NCBI GenBank assembly: GCA_007753915.1
Contig: CP036352.1
Location: forward strand, 186,001-250,000
Length of the DNA: 64,000 nucleotides
Reading direction: 5' to 3'
Source: Phycisphaerae bacterium RAS2
Lineage (GTDB): Bacteria; Planctomycetota; Phycisphaerae; UBA1845; UTPLA1
Position numbers and translations under genes: made by a program. Positions 24,140 to 37,054 of this stretch are shown here, one piece after another. Below the pieces are notes generated by a model, which searched no databases, was not told the origin of the DNA, and worked only from the letters and a program-made list of their open reading frames with translations. Positions within the stretch are counted from its first letter, which is position 1, and the number at the start of each line of letters is the position of its first letter.

Positions 24140-24795
24140 TCGTGATGCCACCTCGTATTTCGACCTATTGGAACACTACCAATTGCAGTAGCGATTATAC
24201 CTTGATCGCACAGTTCATAGCGATCGTTTGACAGCCCCAACTGGGCGTACGACGGTAGCCACGGGCGTCAGCCCGTGGTTCGAGTACGCCGAGAGACAAC
24301 TAGCCCCGAAGGGGCGGCAGAAGTGGATCGCGGTGAGCGGCTGCGTAGGAAGCTGTACGCGTAACCATTCTGTCGCACCTTCGGTGCTTCGAACGTTGGG
24401 AGAACGTTCACTACCCACGGGCTGACGCCCGCGGCTACATTCTGTCGCACCTTTGGTGCTCCAGACCTGAAAGTAGTTGCGCTCGTCAGGTTTGCCCGGG
24501 GCTACATTCGATCGCACCTTTGGTGCTTTGATTGGGTTGGAAGTGCTTGGTGCGTCTGGGACGCACCCTACATGTCTGTCCTCGATGACCTCGGAGGCCC
24601 GCCGCGTTCTTTGACTTGCCTCCCGCCACTCGGGACAATGCTCGTATTAGTGCCACAATGGCTACCGGATTGCCGCAGGCGATTCGACTGTGATTCACCG
24701 GCGAGACGCCGGTGCCACAGTTAAATCTCTTCGCTTTGCCAGGCAGGCCGTACCTGTAACGCACGGCCGCTCAAGCGACGTACCGAGGCAAACTC
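24140..24795. other. gene-free region filled with hairpin repeats
   Basis: No convincing gene lies in these 656 bases. At least eight short palindromes follow one another: a GTAGCCACGGGCGTCAGCCC unit at 24254-24282, CCCCGAAGGGG at 24304, GCACCTTCGGTGC at 24375-24387, an inverted ACGGGCTGACGCCCG unit at 24411-24438, GCACCTTTGGTGC at 24447 and 24514, GGTGCGTCTGGGACGCACC at 24549-24572, and CACCGGCGAGACGCCGGTG at 24695-24718. Confidence 0.75.
24254..24438. repeat. composite element bounded by inverted AGCC-ACGGGCGTCAGCCCG units
   Basis: The unit at 24254-24282 and the opposite-facing unit at 24411-24438 bracket 128 bases holding two more small palindromes. The terminal unit is the same design as the ends of the valS element (GAGCCGCGGGCTTCAGCCCG), with only a few base changes. 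The region therefore looks like a divergent member of the same mobile-palindrome superfamily. Confidence 0.55.
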
Positions 24796-26154
24796 ATGTC
24801 CAAATCCATCTCACTTCCCGTCTGCGACCATAAGCCCCGACCATACACCGGGCCGAGCCGGGCCGAGGCGCTCGCGCTGCGGCAGCAGTACCTCACGCCC
24901 GCGCTGATTACCTACTACAAAGACCCGCTCATGGTCGTCGAGGGGCACATGCAGTACCTCTGGGACGAGACCGGCAAGCGCTACCTCGACGCCTTCGCCG
25001 GCATCGTCACCGTCTCCGTCGGCCACTGCCATCCCAAGATGGTCGAGCGCGTGCGCGACCAGGTCGGCATGTTGCAGCACACGACAACCATCTATTTGCA
25101 CCCGACCGTCGGGCAATATGCCAAGAAGCTGGCCGACCACATGCCGGGCGATTTGAAAGTTACTTACTTTACCAACAGCGGCAGCGAGACGAACGATCTT
25201 GCGATTCTCACCGCCCGCGCTTACACCGGCTGCTTCGACATCATCGGCCTGCGCAACGCCTATCACGGCGGCTCGCAATCCACGATGGCCCTCACCGCCC
25301 ACAGCACCTGGAAGTACGCCACGCCGCACGCGTTCGGCGTGCACCACGGCATGCCCGGCTACTGTTACCGCTGCCCGCTGGGGTTGACGTATCCGAGTTG
25401 CGACGTGAAGTGCGCCCGCGACATCGGCGAGGTGATCAAGTTCACTACGCCGGGCAAAGTCGCCGCCTTCATCGCCGAGCCGATCATGGGCGTCGGCGGC
25501 GCGGTCACGCCACCGCCGGAGTATTTCAAGATCGTCTATGAAGAGGTGCGCAAGGCCGGCGGACTGTGCATCGCCGATGAGGTGCAGACCGGCTTCGGCC
25601 GCACTGGCACGCACTTCTGGGGATTCCAGAACTGGGACGTGATGCCCGACATGGTGTGCATGGCCAAGGGCATCGGCAACGGAACGGCTCTCGGTGCGGT
25701 GACGACGACGCCGGCAATCGCCAAGGCGCTAACCGGCAAGCTGCACTTCAACACGTTCGGCGGCAATCCTGTGCAGGCGACGTATGGCATGGCGACGTTG
25801 GATATTATTGATGAAGAGGGCATTCAGGCGAACGCGCTGAAGGTCGGCGGCGAGTTGAAGGCCGGTCTGACGGCGCTGATGGACAAGCATAAGTTGGTCG
25901 GCGAGGTGCGTGGCATGGGGCTGATGCTTGGCGTGGAGCTGGTAAAGGATCGCGTCAGCAAGGAGCCTGCGAAAGAGGAGACGGCACAGCTACTGGAATT
26001 GGCCCGCGAGCGCGGCCTGTTGCTGGGCAAGGGCGGGTTCTATGGCAACGTGCTGCGGATCAAGCCGCCGATGTGCATCACGAGCGCCGATGCGGCGTAC
26101 ATGGTGGCGGTGGTGGACGAGGCGCTGGGGATAATCGGGTCGGGGGTGAAATAA
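24796..26154 (+). CDS. class III aminotransferase, AGXT2-like
   Basis: A 452-residue cytoplasmic PLP enzyme of the ornithine/alanine-glyoxylate (AGXT2-like) group. Family landmarks: FTNSGSETNDLAI (cofactor phosphate loop, about 128), NAYHGGSQSTMALT, AFIAEPIMGVGG, ADEVQTGFGRTG (Asp binding the PLP ring nitrogen), and MVCMAKGIGNG with the Schiff-base Lys. An unusual Cys-bearing insertion GYCYRCPLGLTYPSCDVKC, also known in mitochondrial AGXT2 relatives, lies at about 190-210. It should move an amino group from alanine or a related amine to glyoxylate or another oxo acid. GAGG seven bases before the ATG supports the start. Confidence 0.87.
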   Translation: MSKSISLPVCDHKPRPYTGPSRAEALALRQQYLTPALITYYKDPLMVVEGHMQYLWDETGKRYLDAFAGIVTVSVGHCHPKMVERVRDQVGMLQHTTTIYLHPTVGQYAKKLADHMPGDLKVTYFTNSGSETNDLAILTARAYTGCFDIIGLRNAYHGGSQSTMALTAHSTWKYATPHAFGVHHGMPGYCYRCPLGLTYPSCDVKCARDIGEVIKFTTPGKVAAFIAEPIMGVGGAVTPPPEYFKIVYEEVRKAGGLCIADEVQTGFGRTGTHFWGFQNWDVMPDMVCMAKGIGNGTALGAVTTTPAIAKALTGKLHFNTFGGNPVQATYGMATLDIIDEEGIQANALKVGGELKAGLTALMDKHKLVGEVRGMGLMLGVELVKDRVSKEPAKEETAQLLELARERGLLLGKGGFYGNVLRIKPPMCITSADAAYMVAVVDEALGIIGSGVK

Positions 26155-30464: not shown

Positions 30465-30872
30465 CTACTGGCCCAGCACCTCGCGCAGCACGTGTTCACT
30501 GACGTAAATCGGTGTCGGCTCGGGGGCGGCGGCCACCCCCAGGGCCAGGGCGTCCGACGGACGGGAATCGACCTCGATCATCTCCCCGTTCGACCGGATG
30601 ACCAGCTTTGCGTAGAACGTGTGGTTCTTCAAGTCGTTGATGACGATCTTCTCCAGCTCGCCGCCCATGCGCTCGATGATGTCGGCCAGCAGGTCGTGCG
30701 TCATGGGGCGGGCCTTCTTGAGACCCTTGAGCCGCCGGTCGATGGCGTAGGCTTCGTTGTCGCCGATGACAATGGGGAACTCGCGCTCCCCGTCGCGCTC
30801 GCGGAGAAAGATCACCTGCTGATCGCTGGTGTCCTGAATCACGATTCGGGACAGGTCCATGCGGACGTCCAT
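30465..30872 (-). CDS. bifunctional nuclease-domain protein (BFN/DUF151)
   Basis: A 135-residue protein consisting of one BFN domain: IFLRERDGEREFPIVIGDNE, then RPMTHDLL, then EVDSRPSDALALG, then PIYVSEHVL. The SRPSDALAL motif is diagnostic. BFN proteins include plant and bacterial nucleases active on RNA and DNA; most bacterial members are uncharacterised and cytoplasmic. Length matches the family, and the ATG at 30872 starts directly at the domain. A repeat element separates it from valS upstream. Confidence 0.88.
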   Translation of the reverse strand: MDVRMDLSRIVIQDTSDQQVIFLRERDGEREFPIVIGDNEAYAIDRRLKGLKKARPMTHDLLADIIERMGGELEKIVINDLKNHTFYAKLVIRSNGEMIEVDSRPSDALALGVAAAPEPTPIYVSEHVLREVLGQ

Positions 30873-31128
30873 CCACCGCCTCCAAGTTTCGACAGCGCGG
30901 AAGGGTATAGCGCGGGCGCGCGGCTGACAATGGGCTGTGAATTGTCGCTCAGCGAGCGTCTAAAGAGCCGTGAGCTTCAAAAGAGCCGCGGGCTTCAGCC
31001 CGCGCGGCCGTTCGATCAAGAGCCCCGCGTCCACTCGCCGTGCCAGCGTCGCGTTCACTCGACGCAAAAGCACCGCGCGGGCTGAAGCCCGCGGCTCGTT
31101 GGGTGGCGACGGCTCTTTGAGTTCCTCA
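30873..31128. other. intergenic region between valS and BFN gene
   Basis: Most of the valS-BFN intergenic region is a repeat element, annotated separately at 30958-31118. No gene is visible here. Confidence 0.7.
30958..31118. repeat. palindromic element (intergenic copy of the valS element)
   Basis: The 123-base core, 30983-31105, starts GAGCCGCGGGCTTCAGCCCG and ends with its complement CGGGCTGAAGCCCGCGGCTC plus GTTGGGTG. Outside lie further inverted AAAGAGCCGT / GACGGCTCTTT arms. The first 64 core bases differ by one base from those of the copy inside valS at 32606, and the remainder matches after removal of a 24-base duplication present in valS. Core length is a multiple of three. Confidence 0.85.
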
Positions 31129-34100
31129 CTAGTTGCCCAATTCCTTGAGATGTTCCTCCAGCGCGGTGATCTGGGCGCGAAGCTCCGCCACGCGCTGCCG
31201 GGCCTGTTCGACAACCTCCGGCTTGGCGTTGCTCACGAAATCGGCGCTGGCCAGCTTGCCCTCGTCGCGCGCGATGGACTTCTTCAACTCCGCCAGCCGC
31301 GCTTCGTCGGTCTTGCGAACCTCCGCAAGGTCGATCAGGTCCGCCACCGGCGCGTACACCTGCAAAGCGCCCATCACGCGGCCCATCGCGCCGCGCGGCT
31401 TGGGCGCGTCCGGTGCGGCCGTCAGCGCGTCGCACCCCGCCAGCGGCAGAATGAACGCACGATAGGTCTCGATCAGCTTGCAAGCGGTTGCATCCGCGCG
31501 GATCGCAATCGCCGGCAGCGTGCGCATCGAAGGCTGCTTCGATTTGCCGCGATAGTCATTCACCGACGCACGAATATCGCGCGCGCTGCGGATGATGTTG
31601 TGCAGGACTTCCATCTCGCGCTCGACGGCTTCGTCGCGCAGGTTCGCTTCGGGCGCGGGCCAGGTTGCGGCGATGAGATCGGGCTGGGTCGCGGCGGCGT
31701 CGGGGATGTCGCGCAGGCCGCGGTGCGGAGCGACGGCGTTCAATTCCTGCCACACCGCCTCCGTCACGTACGGCACGACGGGGTGCAACATGCGGAGCAA
31801 TTGGTCGAGGCAGTGTACGAGGATCTGCTGCGCCACGCCGCGCGCGGATTGATCCGAGCCGCCGGCTTCAGGAAATGTGCCTCGGGCACCCAACGAGCCG
31901 CGGGCTTCAGCCCGCGCGGCCGTCGAATCCGGAGCGTCGCGCTCACTCGCCTGCAAACGCGACTTGGTCATCTCGATGTACCAACTGCAATACTCATCCC
32001 ACATGAAGCGATAGAGCGTACCGACCGCATCGGCGAATCGGTATCGCGTCAGCGCCGCGTCGACGGTCTGCTGCGCCGCCGTCAGCCGCGAGAGAATCCA
32101 CCGATCCTCCAATCGCAGTGACTTCGGATCGAGCGGGCGTGGGTCGTAGCCGTCGAGATTGCGCAGCACGTAGCCCGTCGCCGCCTGCCAGAGCTTGTTG
32201 CAGAAGTTGCGGCCCTTTTCGAACTTCTCGCTGATGTTGATCTCGCGGCCGTCGGGCAGCCTCTTCTTCTGCACCGGCATGCGGATGTCCTGCGTCTCGG
32301 TGGCCAGCTCGGCGAGGGTGAAACGCAGGGCGTCGGCGCCGTACTCGTCGATGATGTCGACGGGGTCCACGCCGTTGCCGAGCGATTTAGACATCTTGCG
32401 GCCTTGCCCGTCCTGAATGACGGGGTGGATCACCACGTCGCGGAATGGCACTTTGCCGGTGTTGTACAGCCCGGTGATGACCATGCGGGCCACCCAGAGG
32501 GTGATGATCTCGCGCGCGGTGGAGAGCACCGACGTGGGGTAGAAGTAGTTCAGGAGTGCTAAAGAGCCGCGGGCGTCAGCAAAAGAGCCGCGCTCTTTGT
32601 CCAATGAGCCGCGGGCTTCAGCCCGCGCGGCCGTTCGATCAAGAGCCCCGCGTTCACTCGCCGTGCCATCGCCTTTTTCATTCGCTGTGCCAGCGTCGCG
32701 TTCACTCGACGCATCGGCGCCGCGCAGGCTGAAGCCCGCGGCTCGTTGGGTGTCATCCGATTGCGTTGCTCCCGGCCAGCCCATCGTCGAATGCGGCCAC
32801 AACGCCGAGCTGAACCACGTGTCGAGCACGTCGGGGTCTTGCTCAAAGCCGACACCTTCGAGGAACGCCACGATTTCTGCATCGGCGGGATTGCTAACTC
32901 CAATATACTGTTCCGCACAAGCGCGGCGCATTCCGATTTCAGGAAAGTTCGCTTCAGCATCCTCTGCAAACTTCAAGAATGCGCGTCCTTCCTTTGCCCA
33001 TGTCGCGAGCTTTTCGTGAAGCTCAATGATTTTCTGCCCTTGTCCAACTGCGCCATCTATGGAAGGACGCGTATTCCGATCACCAAACGGTCTGTAGGCC
33101 CACACCGGTATCCGATGCCCCCACCAGAGCTGCCGGCTGATGCACCAGTCGCGCTTGGCGCTTAGCCAGTCGGTGTAGGTTTTCTCATAGCGTCGCGGGA
33201 AGATGTGCACTTTGTCGCAATTTGCGCGTGCGGCCGGATCGTCGTAGTGCGCATCGTTCTTGCAGATCGCGTCGATGGCCATCTGCGCCAGGCCGGTCGC
33301 GCCGTGCAAATCGTCGATGCGCTTCGCATGCTCGGTGTCGAGATCGCCCATCTTCACGAACCACTGATCGGAAAGATACGGTTGTATTTCCGTGTTGCTC
33401 CGATCGCTGTGCGCCAGGTCAATCTGCCGATCTTCGATCTTCTCGACGAGATTGTGCGACTGCCCTGTCTTCGGATCGGTCCAGTTCTGCAAATCCTCCA
33501 CGACCTGCTTCCGCGCGTCGGCAAACTTCTGTCCGGCGTACTTGCCGCCGTGCTCGTTCACCTTTCCGTCGGCCGTCATGATGTTGATAATCGCCAGCCG
33601 CCGCGATGCGTCGGCGTGCTGCTGCGATCGCTCCCACACCGCATAGTCGTTCGCATCGTGCGCCGGCGTGATCTTCACGCAGCCGCTGCCCAGCGTCGGA
33701 TCGGCCCAGTCGTCGCAGATCAGCGGAATCTCGCGGTTCACCAGCGGCAGCAGAATCTTCGCGGGCGGAACGCTCGCGCTACCCTTCGCCATGTCGCGCA
33801 ACTTCAGCAGCGTCGGCAGCAGCGTGCGCTTTCGCTCGGCGATGTCGGCCAGCTTCGCCTCGATCTCCGGCCGCTCCTTCGCGCTCGCCTCGCGCAGCTT
33901 CACCTGCATCTGCGTCTCGGCCACTTCCAGCGCCGCATCGGGTTCGGGATGCACCGCGACAGCCGTATCGCCCAGCATCGTCTCGGGCCGCGTCGTGGCG
34001 ATGTGCACGTGCGTCGGTTCGCCAGGCTTCGAGCCGATGATCGGATACTTGAAGTGGTAGAAATGCCCCTTCACCGTCTCGTGATAGACCTCGTCATCGG

Positions 34101-34668
34101 CGACGGCGGTCTGCAACTGCGTGTCCCAGTTCACGAGGCGCTTGCCGCGATAGATGAGGCCGTCGCGGAAGAGCTTGAAGAACGTCTCGCGCACGGCGGC
34201 GGCGCAGCCCTCGTCGAGGGTGAAGCGCTCGCGCTGGTAGTCGCAGGAGCAGCCCATGAGCTTGAGCTGCTCGACAATGCGACTGCCGTATTTTTGCTTC
34301 CATTCCCAGATGCGGCGGACCATTTCCTCGCGGCCGAGGTCGTGGCGGCTCTTGCCTTCGTCTTTGCGAATGGTTTTTTCCACCGTCGCCTGCGTGGCGA
34401 TGCCGGCGTGGTCGGTGCCGACGAGCCAGAAGGTGTTGTGCCCGGCCATGCGGTGTCGGCGAATGAGAATGTCCTGCAGGGTGTTGTTCAGCGCGTGGCC
34501 CAGGTGCAGCGCCCCGGTGACGTTCGGTGGCGGGATGACCATGCTGAATCGCTGATCGCGCGGGCGGGCGTCGGGCGCGGGGTGAAAGTGGCCGGCGTCG
34601 AGCCAGCGCTGAAAGATGCGTGCTTCAACGGCGGCGGAGTCGTAGGCTTTGGAATCGGATTTGGCCAT
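31129..34668 (-). CDS. valS: valyl-tRNA synthetase with repeat-derived insertions
   Basis: A 1179-residue class I aminoacyl-tRNA synthetase charging tRNA-Val, cytoplasmic. Recognition is firm: PPNVTGALHLGHAL (HIGH motif, about 55-58), DWCISRQLWWGHRIPVW, GRKMSKSLGNGVDP (KMSKS, about 757), an anticodon-binding domain near 850-1000 and a C-terminal coiled-coil arm (ARLAELKKSIARDEGKL). It is longer than usual for the family. Two segments (about 637-704 and 905-930) are encoded by palindromic repeats and rich in Ala, Arg, Glu and Gly. The first falls between STMGWP and LNYFYPTSVL, which are normally almost adjacent. Both keep the frame, so the enzyme is presumably functional. Confidence 0.95.
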   Translation of the reverse strand: MAKSDSKAYDSAAVEARIFQRWLDAGHFHPAPDARPRDQRFSMVIPPPNVTGALHLGHALNNTLQDILIRRHRMAGHNTFWLVGTDHAGIATQATVEKTIRKDEGKSRHDLGREEMVRRIWEWKQKYGSRIVEQLKLMGCSCDYQRERFTLDEGCAAAVRETFFKLFRDGLIYRGKRLVNWDTQLQTAVADDEVYHETVKGHFYHFKYPIIGSKPGEPTHVHIATTRPETMLGDTAVAVHPEPDAALEVAETQMQVKLREASAKERPEIEAKLADIAERKRTLLPTLLKLRDMAKGSASVPPAKILLPLVNREIPLICDDWADPTLGSGCVKITPAHDANDYAVWERSQQHADASRRLAIINIMTADGKVNEHGGKYAGQKFADARKQVVEDLQNWTDPKTGQSHNLVEKIEDRQIDLAHSDRSNTEIQPYLSDQWFVKMGDLDTEHAKRIDDLHGATGLAQMAIDAICKNDAHYDDPAARANCDKVHIFPRRYEKTYTDWLSAKRDWCISRQLWWGHRIPVWAYRPFGDRNTRPSIDGAVGQGQKIIELHEKLATWAKEGRAFLKFAEDAEANFPEIGMRRACAEQYIGVSNPADAEIVAFLEGVGFEQDPDVLDTWFSSALWPHSTMGWPGATQSDDTQRAAGFSLRGADASSERDAGTANEKGDGTASERGALDRTAARAEARGSLDKERGSFADARGSLALLNYFYPTSVLSTAREIITLWVARMVITGLYNTGKVPFRDVVIHPVIQDGQGRKMSKSLGNGVDPVDIIDEYGADALRFTLAELATETQDIRMPVQKKRLPDGREINISEKFEKGRNFCNKLWQAATGYVLRNLDGYDPRPLDPKSLRLEDRWILSRLTAAQQTVDAALTRYRFADAVGTLYRFMWDEYCSWYIEMTKSRLQASERDAPDSTAARAEARGSLGARGTFPEAGGSDQSARGVAQQILVHCLDQLLRMLHPVVPYVTEAVWQELNAVAPHRGLRDIPDAAATQPDLIAATWPAPEANLRDEAVEREMEVLHNIIRSARDIRASVNDYRGKSKQPSMRTLPAIAIRADATACKLIETYRAFILPLAGCDALTAAPDAPKPRGAMGRVMGALQVYAPVADLIDLAEVRKTDEARLAELKKSIARDEGKLASADFVSNAKPEVVEQARQRVAELRAQITALEEHLKELGN
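31887..31949. repeat. palindromic element inside valS (inverted partial copy)
   Basis: CACCCAACGAGCCGCGGGCT onward is the inverted right terminus of the element at 30958-31118, followed by a degenerate body with GCGTCGCGCTCACTCG. It is translated, in the valS frame, as the insertion containing STAARAEARGSL at about residue 915, between the anticodon-binding helices. Confidence 0.75.
32561..32752. repeat. palindromic element inside valS (expanded copy)
   Basis: The core at 32606-32752 is 147 bases, equal to the 123-base intergenic core plus an internal 24-base duplication ending CGCTGTGCCA; both lengths are multiples of three. Bases 32561-32602 before it hold two truncated AAAGAGCCGCG units. 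The whole is read in frame, giving an insertion that includes RTAARAEARGSL. Confidence 0.85.
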
Positions 34669-34712
34669 GTCGGATGGATGCTCTCAAGCGTTAACGTTCT
34701 GAATGGTCGGCA

Positions 34713-34741
34713 ATTATCAGGATTCTAAGGGGTTCGGGCAA
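34713..34741 (-). promoter_or_regulatory. promoter of valS
   Basis: On the minus strand TTGCCC (34741-34736) and GATAAT (34718-34713) are separated by exactly 17 bases, with the ATG of valS 45 bases downstream. This is a good vegetative promoter match. Confidence 0.55.
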
Positions 34742-34857
34742 GGCAGCCCGGAAGCGAACAGGGATGTTTGGTGATCTCCCGTAACGATCCGTCGATTTCG
34801 CGCGATCTTGATTGATTGTTAATACGATGGATTGGTGGATTGAGATAGCCTTACGGC

Positions 34858-35397
34858 ATGGTAATTCAGCGCACACTCCAAATCGGTTTGGGTTTCATTG
34901 CATGCGGACTTTGGCTGATGGCGGCCGGTTGCGGCCCGCGCGAAAGCGGCGGCGCAGTGACTGAATCGGCCGGGCAGGGCGGCGGCATGAAGCGCGTCAT
35001 CATTCTGTGTACCGGAAACTCCTGTCGCTCGCAGATGGCCGAAGCGTTCTGGCGAAAGCATGGCGGGGCGGATTGGGAGGTGGTCAGCGCGGGCACGCGA
35101 CCCAAGGGGGCGGTCTATCCGCCGGCGATTCGAGCGATGGCGGAGAAGGGCATCGACATCAATCGCGCGGAGAGCAAGTCAACCGGCCCGTTCATCGGCC
35201 AGAAGTTTGATTTGGTTGTAACCGTCTGCGACGACGCGGAGAAGAACTGCCCGACGTTCGCATCAGCGGCGAAGCATCTGCACTGGCCGTTTGACGATCC
35301 GCCGAAGGCGACCGGCACCGACGAACAGCGCATGCAGGTCTGCCGCCGCGTGCGCGACGAGATCGAGGCGAAAATCAAATCCTATCTCGGAAAGTAG
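34858..35397 (+). CDS. arsC: arsenate reductase-like LMW phosphatase-fold protein with lipoprotein leader
   Basis: A 179-residue protein. From residue 44 it is a thioredoxin-coupled ArsC: P-loop CTGNSCRSQMAEAFW (Cys51, Arg57 in CX5R) and the resolving pair CDDAEKNC (Cys124, Cys131). Arsenate to arsenite reduction is the expected activity. The first 43 residues look like a lipoprotein signal (hydrophobic core, MAAGC with Cys25, then a Gly/Ser/Glu linker), which would put it outside the cytoplasm, contrary to known ArsC. A start at 34987 (MKRVIILC) would give an ordinary cytoplasmic enzyme. Neither start has a strong ribosome-binding site. No other ars gene is nearby. Confidence 0.82.
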   Translation: MVIQRTLQIGLGFIACGLWLMAAGCGPRESGGAVTESAGQGGGMKRVIILCTGNSCRSQMAEAFWRKHGGADWEVVSAGTRPKGAVYPPAIRAMAEKGIDINRAESKSTGPFIGQKFDLVVTVCDDAEKNCPTFASAAKHLHWPFDDPPKATGTDEQRMQVCRRVRDEIEAKIKSYLGK

Positions 35398-35461
35398 CCG
35401 CACGATTCAGGCGATTGCAAACGCCTGCCAAGTGGGCAAGCCGTTCGAGCGCGGGATTGAA

Positions 35462-35556
35462 CGGGAGCGGATGGGAATCGAACCCACCCGGCACTGCGAT
35501 GCAGCGCCGCAACGGCTTTGAAGACCGCGAGGGCCACCAGGCACCCGGACGCTCCC
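35462..35556 (-). tRNA. selC: tRNA-Sec (anticodon UCA)
   Basis: On the minus strand a 95-base cloverleaf begins GGGAGCG and ends CGCTCCC followed by discriminator G. The anticodon loop CTTCAAA carries TCA, flanked by a five-pair stem (GCGGT/GCCGT). The long D arm contains CCTGGTGG, the extra arm is about 20 bases with an eight-pair stem (CGGC-CTG/CAG-GCCG), and the T arm is GTGGGTTCGATTCCCAT. Long D stem, long extra arm, UCA anticodon and G discriminator are the marks of selenocysteine tRNA. The acceptor stem is 7 clear pairs plus a T-C mismatch at position 8. CCA is not encoded. Confidence 0.92.
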
Positions 35557-35650
35557 GAATGAAGTCAGAAGTGCGAATGGCGAATTGCGAAATGGGCGCA
35601 GGGAACAGGCCTTTCGCACGTCGCTATTCTTAACTCGCTATTCTCCTTCA
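35557..35650. repeat. GAAT-rich inverted repeat, copy 2
   Basis: The left arm (35557-35597: GAATGAAGTCAGAAGTGCGA onward) and right arm (35612-35650, whose complement begins GATGAAGGAGAATAGCGAG) face each other. The element fills the gap between selC and fumC, and the TGA stop of fumC lies within it. Confidence 0.55.
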
Positions 35651-37054
35651 TCCTCCTGCCGGGCCGGCTGAAGCGCCCGGTTCAGTCATCGCCCGCGGGT
35701 CGAGCAGCTTATTAAGCTGATCCGCCGGCAGCACGTTTTGATCCAGCGCGACCTGCCGCACCGTTTTGCCGGTCTCGTAGGCCTTCTTTGCTAGTGCCGC
35801 AGCGTTGTCATATCCAATCACCGGGGCAAGTGACGTACACATCGCAAGGCTCTGCTCCACGAGTTGCTCGGCGCGTTGCTTGTCGGCCTCCAGCCCGGCG
35901 ATGCACCGGTCGGAGAACACGCGCACAGCGTTGGAAAGGATGCGAGTCGCCTCGAGGAAATTGTGTGCCATCACCGGCATGCCGACGTGCAGGTCGAAGT
36001 TGCCCAGCGTTGCCGCCGCGTGCGTCACGGCCGCATCCGATCCGATCGCGTGCGCACAGGCCTGCATCAGCATCTCGCACATCACAGGGTTGACCTTGCC
36101 CGGCATGATGCTGCTGCCCGGTTGCGTGGCGGGGAGTTTCAACTCGCCGATGCCGCAACGCGGCCCGCTGCCGAGGAATCGAATGTCGTTGGCGATCTTG
36201 CCGAGGCTGATTGCGACGGTTTTCAGCAGGCCCGACGCCTCGACGAAACCGTCCTTCGCGTGCTGCGCCTCGAAGTGATTGGCCGCTTCAACGAAATCGA
36301 TGCCGGTCTTGCTCGCCAGCCGCTCGGCGACGGCTGCCCCGAACCCCATCGGCGTGTTGATGCCCGTGCCGACGGCTGTACCACCGATCGGCAGCTCGCG
36401 CAAGGCGCGGACAGCTTTCTGACAGCGCATCGCGCCGAGTCGCGCCTGCGCCGCGTAGCCGGAGAACTCCTGACCGAGCCGGATCGGCGTGGCGTCCTGA
36501 AGGTGGGTGCGGCCGATCTTGACGATGTTGTCCCAGGCGCGGGCCTTGTCGTCGAGCGCATCGGCGAGGTGCTCGAGCGCGGGGATGAGATCGTTTCGCA
36601 GGGTTTCACATGCGGCGACGTGCATGGCCGTGGGGATCACGTCGTTGGAGCTTTGCGACTGATTGACGTGATCGTTGGGATGAATCTTCGCGCCGGAGAC
36701 GAGCTGCATCGCGCGATGGGCGATCACCTCGTTGGCGTTCATGTTGGTGCTGGTGGCCGAACCGGTCTGGAAGATGTCAATGACGAAGTGACGGTCGAGC
36801 TTGCCGTCGATGACTTCCTGTGCGCCCTTGATGATGGCGTCGCACTTGTCCTTCGGGACGGTTCCAAATTGAGCGTTGGCTTCTGCCGCGGCGAGCTTGA
36901 TGAGTCCGAGCGCGCGGATGTAGGGCCGGGTGAAGACGTAGCCGGAGATGGGAAAGTTCTCGACGGCTCGCTGGGTGGACGCGCCATAGAGGGCGTCGGC
37001 GGGCACTTGCATCGTGCCCATGGAGTCTTTTTCGGTGCGGAATTCGGCGGACAT
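35648..37054 (-). CDS. fumC: class II fumarate hydratase
   Basis: A 468-residue homotetrameric, iron-independent fumarase of the TCA cycle (fumarate to malate), cytoplasmic. Signature GSSIMPGKVNP, plus GRTHLQDATPIRLGQEFSGY and SQSSNDVIPTAMH (the NDxxPTA substrate loop), identify the fumarase/aspartase superfamily. GRTHLQDATP and the overall length favour fumarase over aspartase or argininosuccinate lyase. The ATG at 37054 has AGGAG nine bases upstream; the in-frame extension to 37156 is Pro-rich and unlike the family. Its stop codon lies inside a GAAT-rich repeat. Confidence 0.93.
   Translation of the reverse strand: MSAEFRTEKDSMGTMQVPADALYGASTQRAVENFPISGYVFTRPYIRALGLIKLAAAEANAQFGTVPKDKCDAIIKGAQEVIDGKLDRHFVIDIFQTGSATSTNMNANEVIAHRAMQLVSGAKIHPNDHVNQSQSSNDVIPTAMHVAACETLRNDLIPALEHLADALDDKARAWDNIVKIGRTHLQDATPIRLGQEFSGYAAQARLGAMRCQKAVRALRELPIGGTAVGTGINTPMGFGAAVAERLASKTGIDFVEAANHFEAQHAKDGFVEASGLLKTVAISLGKIANDIRFLGSGPRCGIGELKLPATQPGSSIMPGKVNPVMCEMLMQACAHAIGSDAAVTHAAATLGNFDLHVGMPVMAHNFLEATRILSNAVRVFSDRCIAGLEADKQRAEQLVEQSLAMCTSLAPVIGYDNAAALAKKAYETGKTVRQVALDQNVLPADQLNKLLDPRAMTEPGASAGPAGG

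Follow-up and report, generated by a model that had tools for sequence, protein, structure and literature searches.

Inteins and homing endonucleases are mobile enzymes whose coding sequences occupy conserved positions within essential genes without breaking the reading frame, and Rickettsia palindromic elements occur in essential genes too. Repetitive extragenic palindromic sequences (REPs), together with the REP doublets called REPINs and the REP-associated tyrosine transposases (RAYTs), are in the available sections of Bertels & Rainey (2011; PMC3116915) defined as extragenic. In-frame intragenic REPs with a GTAG/CGTC tag, including dimers and clusters and including cases in the tRNA synthetases of three species, are described in the accessible text of Di Nocera et al. 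(2013; PMC3733652), and by that account in-frame REPs in genes, even in those for tRNA synthetases, are already known. The same text portrays the Rickettsia elements as CGTC-tagged and as a class seemingly without a dedicated transposase. Among planctomycetes, the part of Quentin et al. (2018; PMC6006769) that we consulted places Y1 proteins with a Y----Q motif and a CnGA foot in TnpA-Y1 class 3, and reports REPs that lie within tnpA genes but no tnpA within a host gene. Here we analyze a window of 64,000 nucleotides (bases 186001-250000 of the single-contig, 4.32 Mb genome of Phycisphaerae bacterium RAS2) in which valS, the gene for valyl-tRNA synthetase (ValRS), hosts two REP-bearing inserts in frame. 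These inserts are the visible edge of a transposase family living inside essential enzymes.

The valS gene (31129-34668, minus strand) is present in a single copy and forms one uninterrupted frame of 1179 codons (1179 amino acids); as the initial annotation of the window had proposed, the reading frame is kept through the palindromes. With its inserts the protein exceeds both NCBIfam valS cut-offs (943 bits against 704, and 817 against 612), and it carries the motifs HLGH at residue 55 and KMSKS at residue 758. No other frame in the RAS2 genome passes the valS cut-off, the further matches being ileS and two synthetase-like frames that fall below it, and a redundant second valS was accordingly discarded as an explanation. 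Comparison of the RAS2 ValRS with those of 14 relatives set the borders of insert A at 32557-32760 (minus strand; residues 637-704, 68 amino acids) and those of insert B at 31849-31947 (minus strand; residues 908-940, 33 amino acids), so that the two inserts stand and their sizes, first put at about 65 and 25 residues, are revised. On the T. thermophilus ValRS (1gax), insert A falls between positions 474 and 477, with only residues 475-476 separating the aligned blocks, and insert B falls between positions 660 and 668. Judged from these alignments, both sit in short links between conserved ValRS blocks.

The valS palindromes are real, and each was found where it had first been observed. The sequence GAGCCGCGGGCTTCAGCCCG occurs exactly at 30983 (plus), 31078 (minus), 31895 (plus) and 32606 (plus), and with one mismatch at 32725 (minus); with up to three mismatches allowed, there are seven matches in the window where 0.02 are expected, a number reached in none of 100 shuffles. 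Inside valS, insert A contains a REPIN-like doublet of 147 bp (32606-32752) together with REP scraps at 32561-32601, which are two adjoining degenerate fragments of family D2 on the plus strand (32561-32580, 95% identity; 32582-32601, 75% identity). The element at 31887-31949 was initially described, fairly, as an inverted partial copy: it is a single REP arm, and over its first 34 nt it shows 97% complementarity to the right-hand end of the valS doublet (pair I3). Downstream of valS lies an intergenic doublet of 123 bp (30983-31105), adjoined by another degenerate D2 fragment (30962-30981, plus strand, 80% identity). The REP starts are 93 bases apart in the intergenic doublet and 117 bases apart (69 + 48) in the valS doublet, whereas in the other tight doublets of RAS2 and of its sister species (G001, the only other genome of the genus) they are mostly 67-69 bases apart, for a doublet of about 90 bp. 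The two doublets align in MAFFT with one 24-base gap. Both copies are longer than the usual doublet, the intergenic one by 24 bases and the valS one by 48. Folded as DNA, the intergenic doublet gives -49 kcal/mol (z -7.8 against shuffles) and the valS doublet a z of -6.1. Elsewhere in the window, a related degenerate doublet (24256-24437; three and two mismatches) occupies the intergenic space between open reading frames (ORFs) ending at 24151 and starting at 24796. A selenocysteine tRNA gene stands directly upstream of valS (35462-35556).

That the core should recur throughout the genome had been anticipated, and it does: its 22 bases, at up to three mismatches, are found at 47 places in RAS2, compared with 3 for a reversed control. 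We assigned each place through its open frame and Pfam (the assignments are our own) and located 23 REPs in frame within 14 Pfam-recognized genes, 5 at gene edges and 16 in intergenic or unassigned positions, with 3 weak matches. The hairpin measures 26 nt, within the 20-40 nt of the many-copy imperfect palindromes known as REPs, and from their sequences we class these palindromes as REP-type repeats, some of them paired as REPIN-like hairpins. Eight inverted doublets were counted by eye (one of them with a four-mismatch partner), and the three that were folded gave z values of -6 to -8. The GTAG/CGTC tag is absent from the 10 aligned doublets, in which the stem is preceded by AnGA in nine cases and by GTGA in one. 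Nor does the description of REPs as mainly extragenic apply, with 23 of the 47 places lying within genes.

Several genes hold more than one REP (five in ileS, three each in valS and purH, and two in a pyridoxal phosphate (PLP) enzyme gene), while single REPs are found in alaS, proS, a coaBC-type DFP gene, an accC-type biotin carboxylase gene (near the C-terminus), an E1 dehydrogenase gene, cinA, and genes for a molybdopterin oxidoreductase, a polyketide synthase, a MotA/ExbB-like protein and an FG-GAP protein. The REPs at gene edges are those of flgI, nuoN and rarA and two upstream of ileS. Four of the 14 host genes, valS, ileS, alaS and proS, encode tRNA synthetases, an enrichment of P ~1e-6 to 9e-5 under assumed numbers of 22 aminoacyl-tRNA synthetase genes among 3600; like ValRS, the products of the other three score above their NCBIfam cut-offs despite the inserts. 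Five of the six reading frames of the REP are open and the sixth contains a stop, and all five open readings are found in ORFs (EPRASARA, AAGFSPRG, AARAEARG, PRGLKPAA and, as NRGLQPAR, SRGLQPAR).

There are eight Y1_Tnp (PF01797) loci in the RAS2 genome, and one of them (L034) is flanked by REPs of this family. It consists of a single frame of 861 codons with the order PurH-REP-RAYT-REP-PurH. The frame passes the PRK00881 cut-off for PurH and falls below that of TIGR00355 (479 against 528 bits). A redundant second purH was considered as well and rejected: among the five matches listed for RAS2, one is the full purH and four are RAYT paralogues. In the purH of one relative (G009) the two PurH halves adjoin, which represents the empty site. 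The RAS2 RAYT has the motifs of a Y1 transposase, with its HUH in PNHIHVL and its catalytic tyrosine in YVCEQ (Y---Q), and its cognate REP flanks are present with an inverted-repeat score of 26. On these sequence features we regard the REP-flanked RAYT in purH as the most likely mobilizer of the RAS2 REPs.

The sister species has 72 REP places at up to two mismatches. The same two valS sites are occupied there by the same repeats, and nearly every RAS2 REP locus has a REP-bearing counterpart; none was found for L128, L131 (a weak match) and L142 (a degenerate doublet), where an empty G001 site would be visible only as a missing counterpart, the G001 stretches having been fetched around that genome's own REPs. 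As judged from these pairings, most REP sites of the genus share ancestry. We compared 33 site pairs, one of which has no length; the set excludes three weak RAS2 places and a number of intergenic ones. Among 16 intragenic sites with a net difference in length, 14 differ by a multiple of three (binomial P 1.2e-5), as opposed to 4 of 12 such edge or intergenic sites; both exceptions among the intragenic sites lie within the G001 valS. That gene (L099, G001:C1:2411000-2416000) also contains a third REP doublet, not present in RAS2. At two sets of intergenic tandem arrays of partial REPs (L123/L153 and L120/L170), copy number differs between the two genomes.

The cores of the repeats are more alike than their surroundings. 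Identical cores are found in 12 of 19 intragenic pairs, where about 1.3 would be expected from flank identity, and in 7 of 10 intergenic pairs, where about 0.9 would be expected, although the sites were selected for consensus match and the test is thereby biased towards the cores. In purH, with dS between 0.5 and 0.8, dN/dS between the two species is 0.15 for the RAYT, 0.12 for the C-terminal and 0.27 for the N-terminal part of PurH, and 0.77 for the REP-coded linkers. The value of 0.15 points to purifying selection, and we therefore conclude that the purH RAYT has been kept as a protein.

These data bear on a first alternative, which is that the elements are passive relics: old in-frame REPs fixed by drift, with the nested RAYT a dead fossil carried as a neutral domain. 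The occupation of most RAS2 sites in the sister species, the rapid change of the REP linkers and the in-frame length drift of tandem units are all what such relics would display. The RAYT, however, is constrained to a degree comparable to its host enzyme, the HUH motif is preserved in all 31 nested RAYTs discussed below, identical intragenic cores are in excess (with the bias noted), and the G001 valS carries its extra doublet. We consider passive relics somewhat unlikely.

Outside the genus, the expectation that close relatives would lack the valS inserts held in large part: no REP core of the RAS2 kind was seen in the valS region of 13 of the 14 relatives. It did not hold for G011, which has one REP core and the peptide MAARAEARGS in loop A of its valS. 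Several other relatives have, in the same ValRS loops, different repeat-like peptides that resemble other REP families, so that the loops are used repeatedly.

We also draw on searches of 41 genomes (RAS2 and 40 relatives), of 298 genomes of the class, and of named genomes (the best 80 of 198), in which loci found with both one of our handles and a name were counted once. At least 31 RAYT domains lie inside host frames, in at least 28 genomes; at least 27 of these genomes are within the 298-genome sample, and the 28th (G024) comes from the 41-genome search. By Pfam the hosts are PurH in 6 cases, ValRS in 10, alanyl-tRNA synthetase (AlaRS) in 10 (two of them in one gene), leucyl-tRNA synthetase (LeuRS) in 1, an MmeI-like protein in 1 and DUF1156 proteins in 3. 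Named examples include the PurH of uncultured planctomycete PLA6 (L214), the ValRS of Phycisphaerae bacterium Bin_14R (L215), the LeuRS and ValRS of Bin_19R (L216 and L217) and an MmeI-like protein of a groundwater Planctomycetota metagenome-assembled genome (L218). The LeuRS frame with a nested RAYT passes the leuS NCBIfam cut-off with the insert in place. An AlphaFold2 model of the L214 RAYT (pLDDT 91) matches IS200/IS605 transposases and, at a lower level, the REP-bound RAYT 4er8, with a query TM of ~0.5.

Several observations were made at individual loci. The doubly occupied AlaRS gene (L296, G029:C11) is one alaS frame of 1686 codons with two RAYT domains. A second REP family surrounds the nested RAYTs of L295, L359, L360 and L362, with in-frame peptides of the PLPHGRGSE or PSRDREGAV type; tandem in-frame units of the GRGSSE type follow the nested RAYT in the purH of G013 (L312); and an Acido-Lenti-1 RNA lies near the ValRS-RAYT gene of L215 (9623-9669). 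Other RAYT loci in frames longer than ~380 amino acids were not accepted as nested: L301, L349, L363 and L254 have no Pfam host domain; L303 is an ORF6N protein without a RAYT by Pfam; L304, L305, L361, L365 and L366 either carry the RAYT at an end of the frame or lack a host domain; L306/L220 has no clear host; and L235 is a lysyl-tRNA-synthetase-like ORF (Planctomycetaceae bacterium IP29b_bin.4) with the RAYT at its N-terminus. L278 (384 amino acids) was left out of the nested-locus scan.

By contrast, most named RAYTs are encoded in short frames (330 codons or fewer in 70 of the 80, the best of 198); for motifs, the stand-alone set comprised 48 of the 80 named loci and 15 loci from the 298-genome search. 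Inverted REP-like flanks within the ORF, better than 30 shuffles, accompany 28 of 30 nested RAYTs (G001_PurH left out). The start codon has mostly been lost: an ATG within the 25 codons upstream of the conserved domain start is found in only 3 of 28 nested RAYTs, as opposed to 63 of 72 non-nested ones (Fisher P 4.9e-13). The nested set here omits G029_PurH and G175_ValRS, which have no motif, and G001_PurH; the non-nested set is the 72 of the 80 named loci that remain after removal of the five nested ones, L220, L235 and L293. In a hand-picked set of stand-alone RAYTs, 49 of 57 have the ATG.

We then placed nested and stand-alone RAYTs on a tree of 91 of 92 rows (one was too short), a quick tree without bootstrap and with one very long row (G029_PurH), on which label changes, rather than gains or losses, were counted. 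Nested and stand-alone labels require at least four changes, three of them forced by starred branches, and seven labels, stand-alone included, require 10. From these changes it follows that nesting is no single frozen event and that hosts have changed. This result bears on the idea that the RAYT is a domesticated domain, serving the host together with its REPs (for example in DNA repair, replication or regulation) as a stable fusion and not as a parasite in refuge. Purifying selection on the RAYT would be expected of such a domain, as would cores conserved equally at coding and non-coding sites, and different families use similar Pfam positions in ValRS and AlaRS (those of G019 ValRS and G029 AlaRS differ). 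The presence of nested RAYTs is patchy, however, at least 27 of 298 genomes having one, and 10 changes among seven labels fit movement better than a fixed partnership, and we judge domestication to be unlikely.

A further possibility is that the insert is removed before the enzyme functions, either by a self-splicing intron of the IStron kind or by protein splicing as in an intein. We can infer in its favor only that it would explain why essential enzymes tolerate such long insertions. No Rfam intron reached its gathering threshold at 13 nested loci or in the region around valS (window positions 30500-36000), the Pfam tables for the nested ORFs list no intein (Hint) domain, and the preservation of frame at 14 of 16 changed intragenic sites would be needless under RNA splicing. 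Removal by splicing is thus very improbable.

The explanation that we favor, and hold to be probable with good confidence, is that the REPs are spread by a RAYT and tolerated in frame in protein loops, and that a REP-RAYT-REP unit has likewise been housed in essential enzymes. A Y1 HUH RAYT would act on single-stranded REP hairpins; by analogy with described RAYTs, it may recognize such hairpins and spread them in trans. REPs that land in frame in the surface loops of proteins would be tolerated, as all but one of the six frames are open and encode short linkers rich in Ala, Arg and Gly. The whole repeat-transposase-repeat unit could live in the same manner, with the transposase translated as a domain within PurH in RAS2 and within ValRS, AlaRS and LeuRS in relatives, and the fused polypeptides are presumably made. 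Such a RAYT, its own ATG usually lost, would depend on the host gene for its expression, and only exact removal would leave that gene working. With precise removal the sole harmless deletion, an essential gene would therefore be a safe home, and essentiality may be the reason that the nested homes persist. The transposase may still cut REPs and be mobile at present. More tentatively, and with somewhat less than an even chance in our estimation, the REP-bounded RAYTs of the Phycisphaerae could be translated only within ValRS, AlaRS, PurH or LeuRS, stay active in trans on REPs throughout the genome, and move among the same loops in a few essential genes, in an intein-like refuge without protein splicing.

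A number of observations weigh against this explanation. REP singlets outnumber doublets in the RAS2 genome. The purH RAYT has a modest Pfam score (34.7 bits) and is below the NCBIfam RAYT cut-off (42.1 bits against 80, E 7.7e-11). Most sites are common to RAS2 and its sister species, and REP activity may therefore be past. The flanking inverted repeat is absent at two nested RAYTs, those of LeuRS and the MmeI-like protein. A GTG or TTG is present in the 25 upstream codons of 9 of the 28 nested RAYTs, and internal initiation may therefore occur. Nested RAYTs were found through long open frames, a procedure that leaves out-of-frame, gene-killing cases uncounted. Finally, the G001 valS does not read as a single open frame: it has two frame discrepancies of one base each beside its REPs (net +73 and -31), which put a central portion of the gene out of register by one base and then restore it, and which reflect either an assembly error or real damage.

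The last of these points, and the fact that long frames arise by chance in GC-rich DNA, would also suit an explanation in which the nested genes are spurious joins, produced by the long frames of a GC-rich genome and by assembly artefacts. Host domains flank the RAYT in one frame across many independent assemblies, though; the curated cut-offs for valS, ileS, alaS, proS and leuS are passed with the inserts present; and the RAS2 genome is a single contig. We find spurious joins scarcely credible. The spread of REPs by a RAYT, with tolerance of both in protein loops, remains our preferred explanation, and the initial interpretation of the valS inserts as coding palindromes is supported.

The name REP implies an extragenic location, but here the repeats and their transposase occupy the inside of essential genes, and the nested RAYTs touch on an open question, namely how RAYTs and REPs persist with few transposase copies. 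Should the fusions be made, the nuclease domain of a mobile element would form part of the chain of tRNA synthetases and of a purine enzyme. The fusions would then represent a new route by which selfish DNA secures expression and escapes deletion, and a natural supply of new protein linkers and domains. Our searches of open-licence PMC papers turned up no description of a RAYT housed within a host enzyme; PMC12306157 had no bearing on the matter.

The described systems each share part of this organization. Like the REPs and REPINs of PMC3116915, as far as its available sections go, those of RAS2 are short palindromes in many copies, with hairpin doublets, a variable spacer and a REP-flanked RAYT; they differ in that about half lie within genes and most are singlets, in the mostly AnGA sequence before the stem, and in the position of the RAYT gene inside a host ORF. 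The accessible text of PMC3733652 makes the same argument for loop tolerance that we make here, but its REPs are mostly intergenic, many of their hosts are repair genes, and no RAYT nested in a host gene appears in that text. With respect to TnpA-Y1 class 3, as characterized in the consulted part of PMC6006769, the RAS2 RAYT stands apart, with Y---Q (YVCEQ) and a REP that is mostly AnGA, whereas many members of a second nested clade show both class 3 features: Y----Q is found in 9 of 13 domains from this clade (some being truncated where the match stops), and in 12 repeats of nested loci the stem is preceded by CCGA or CAGA, like the class 3 foot. Nested RAYTs would work like inteins, but without a splicing domain found, and the insert apparently remains in the protein. 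As for the Rickettsia palindromic elements, to which the initial annotation compared the valS inserts, both groups are in-frame coding palindromes within genes, and by analogy the RAS2 family works like them; the likeness extends to the manner of working and does not establish membership in the Rickettsia family itself. RAS2 has a REP-flanked RAYT and a different tag. The RAS2 family is a plausible transposase-driven counterpart to coding palindromes of the Rickettsia type.

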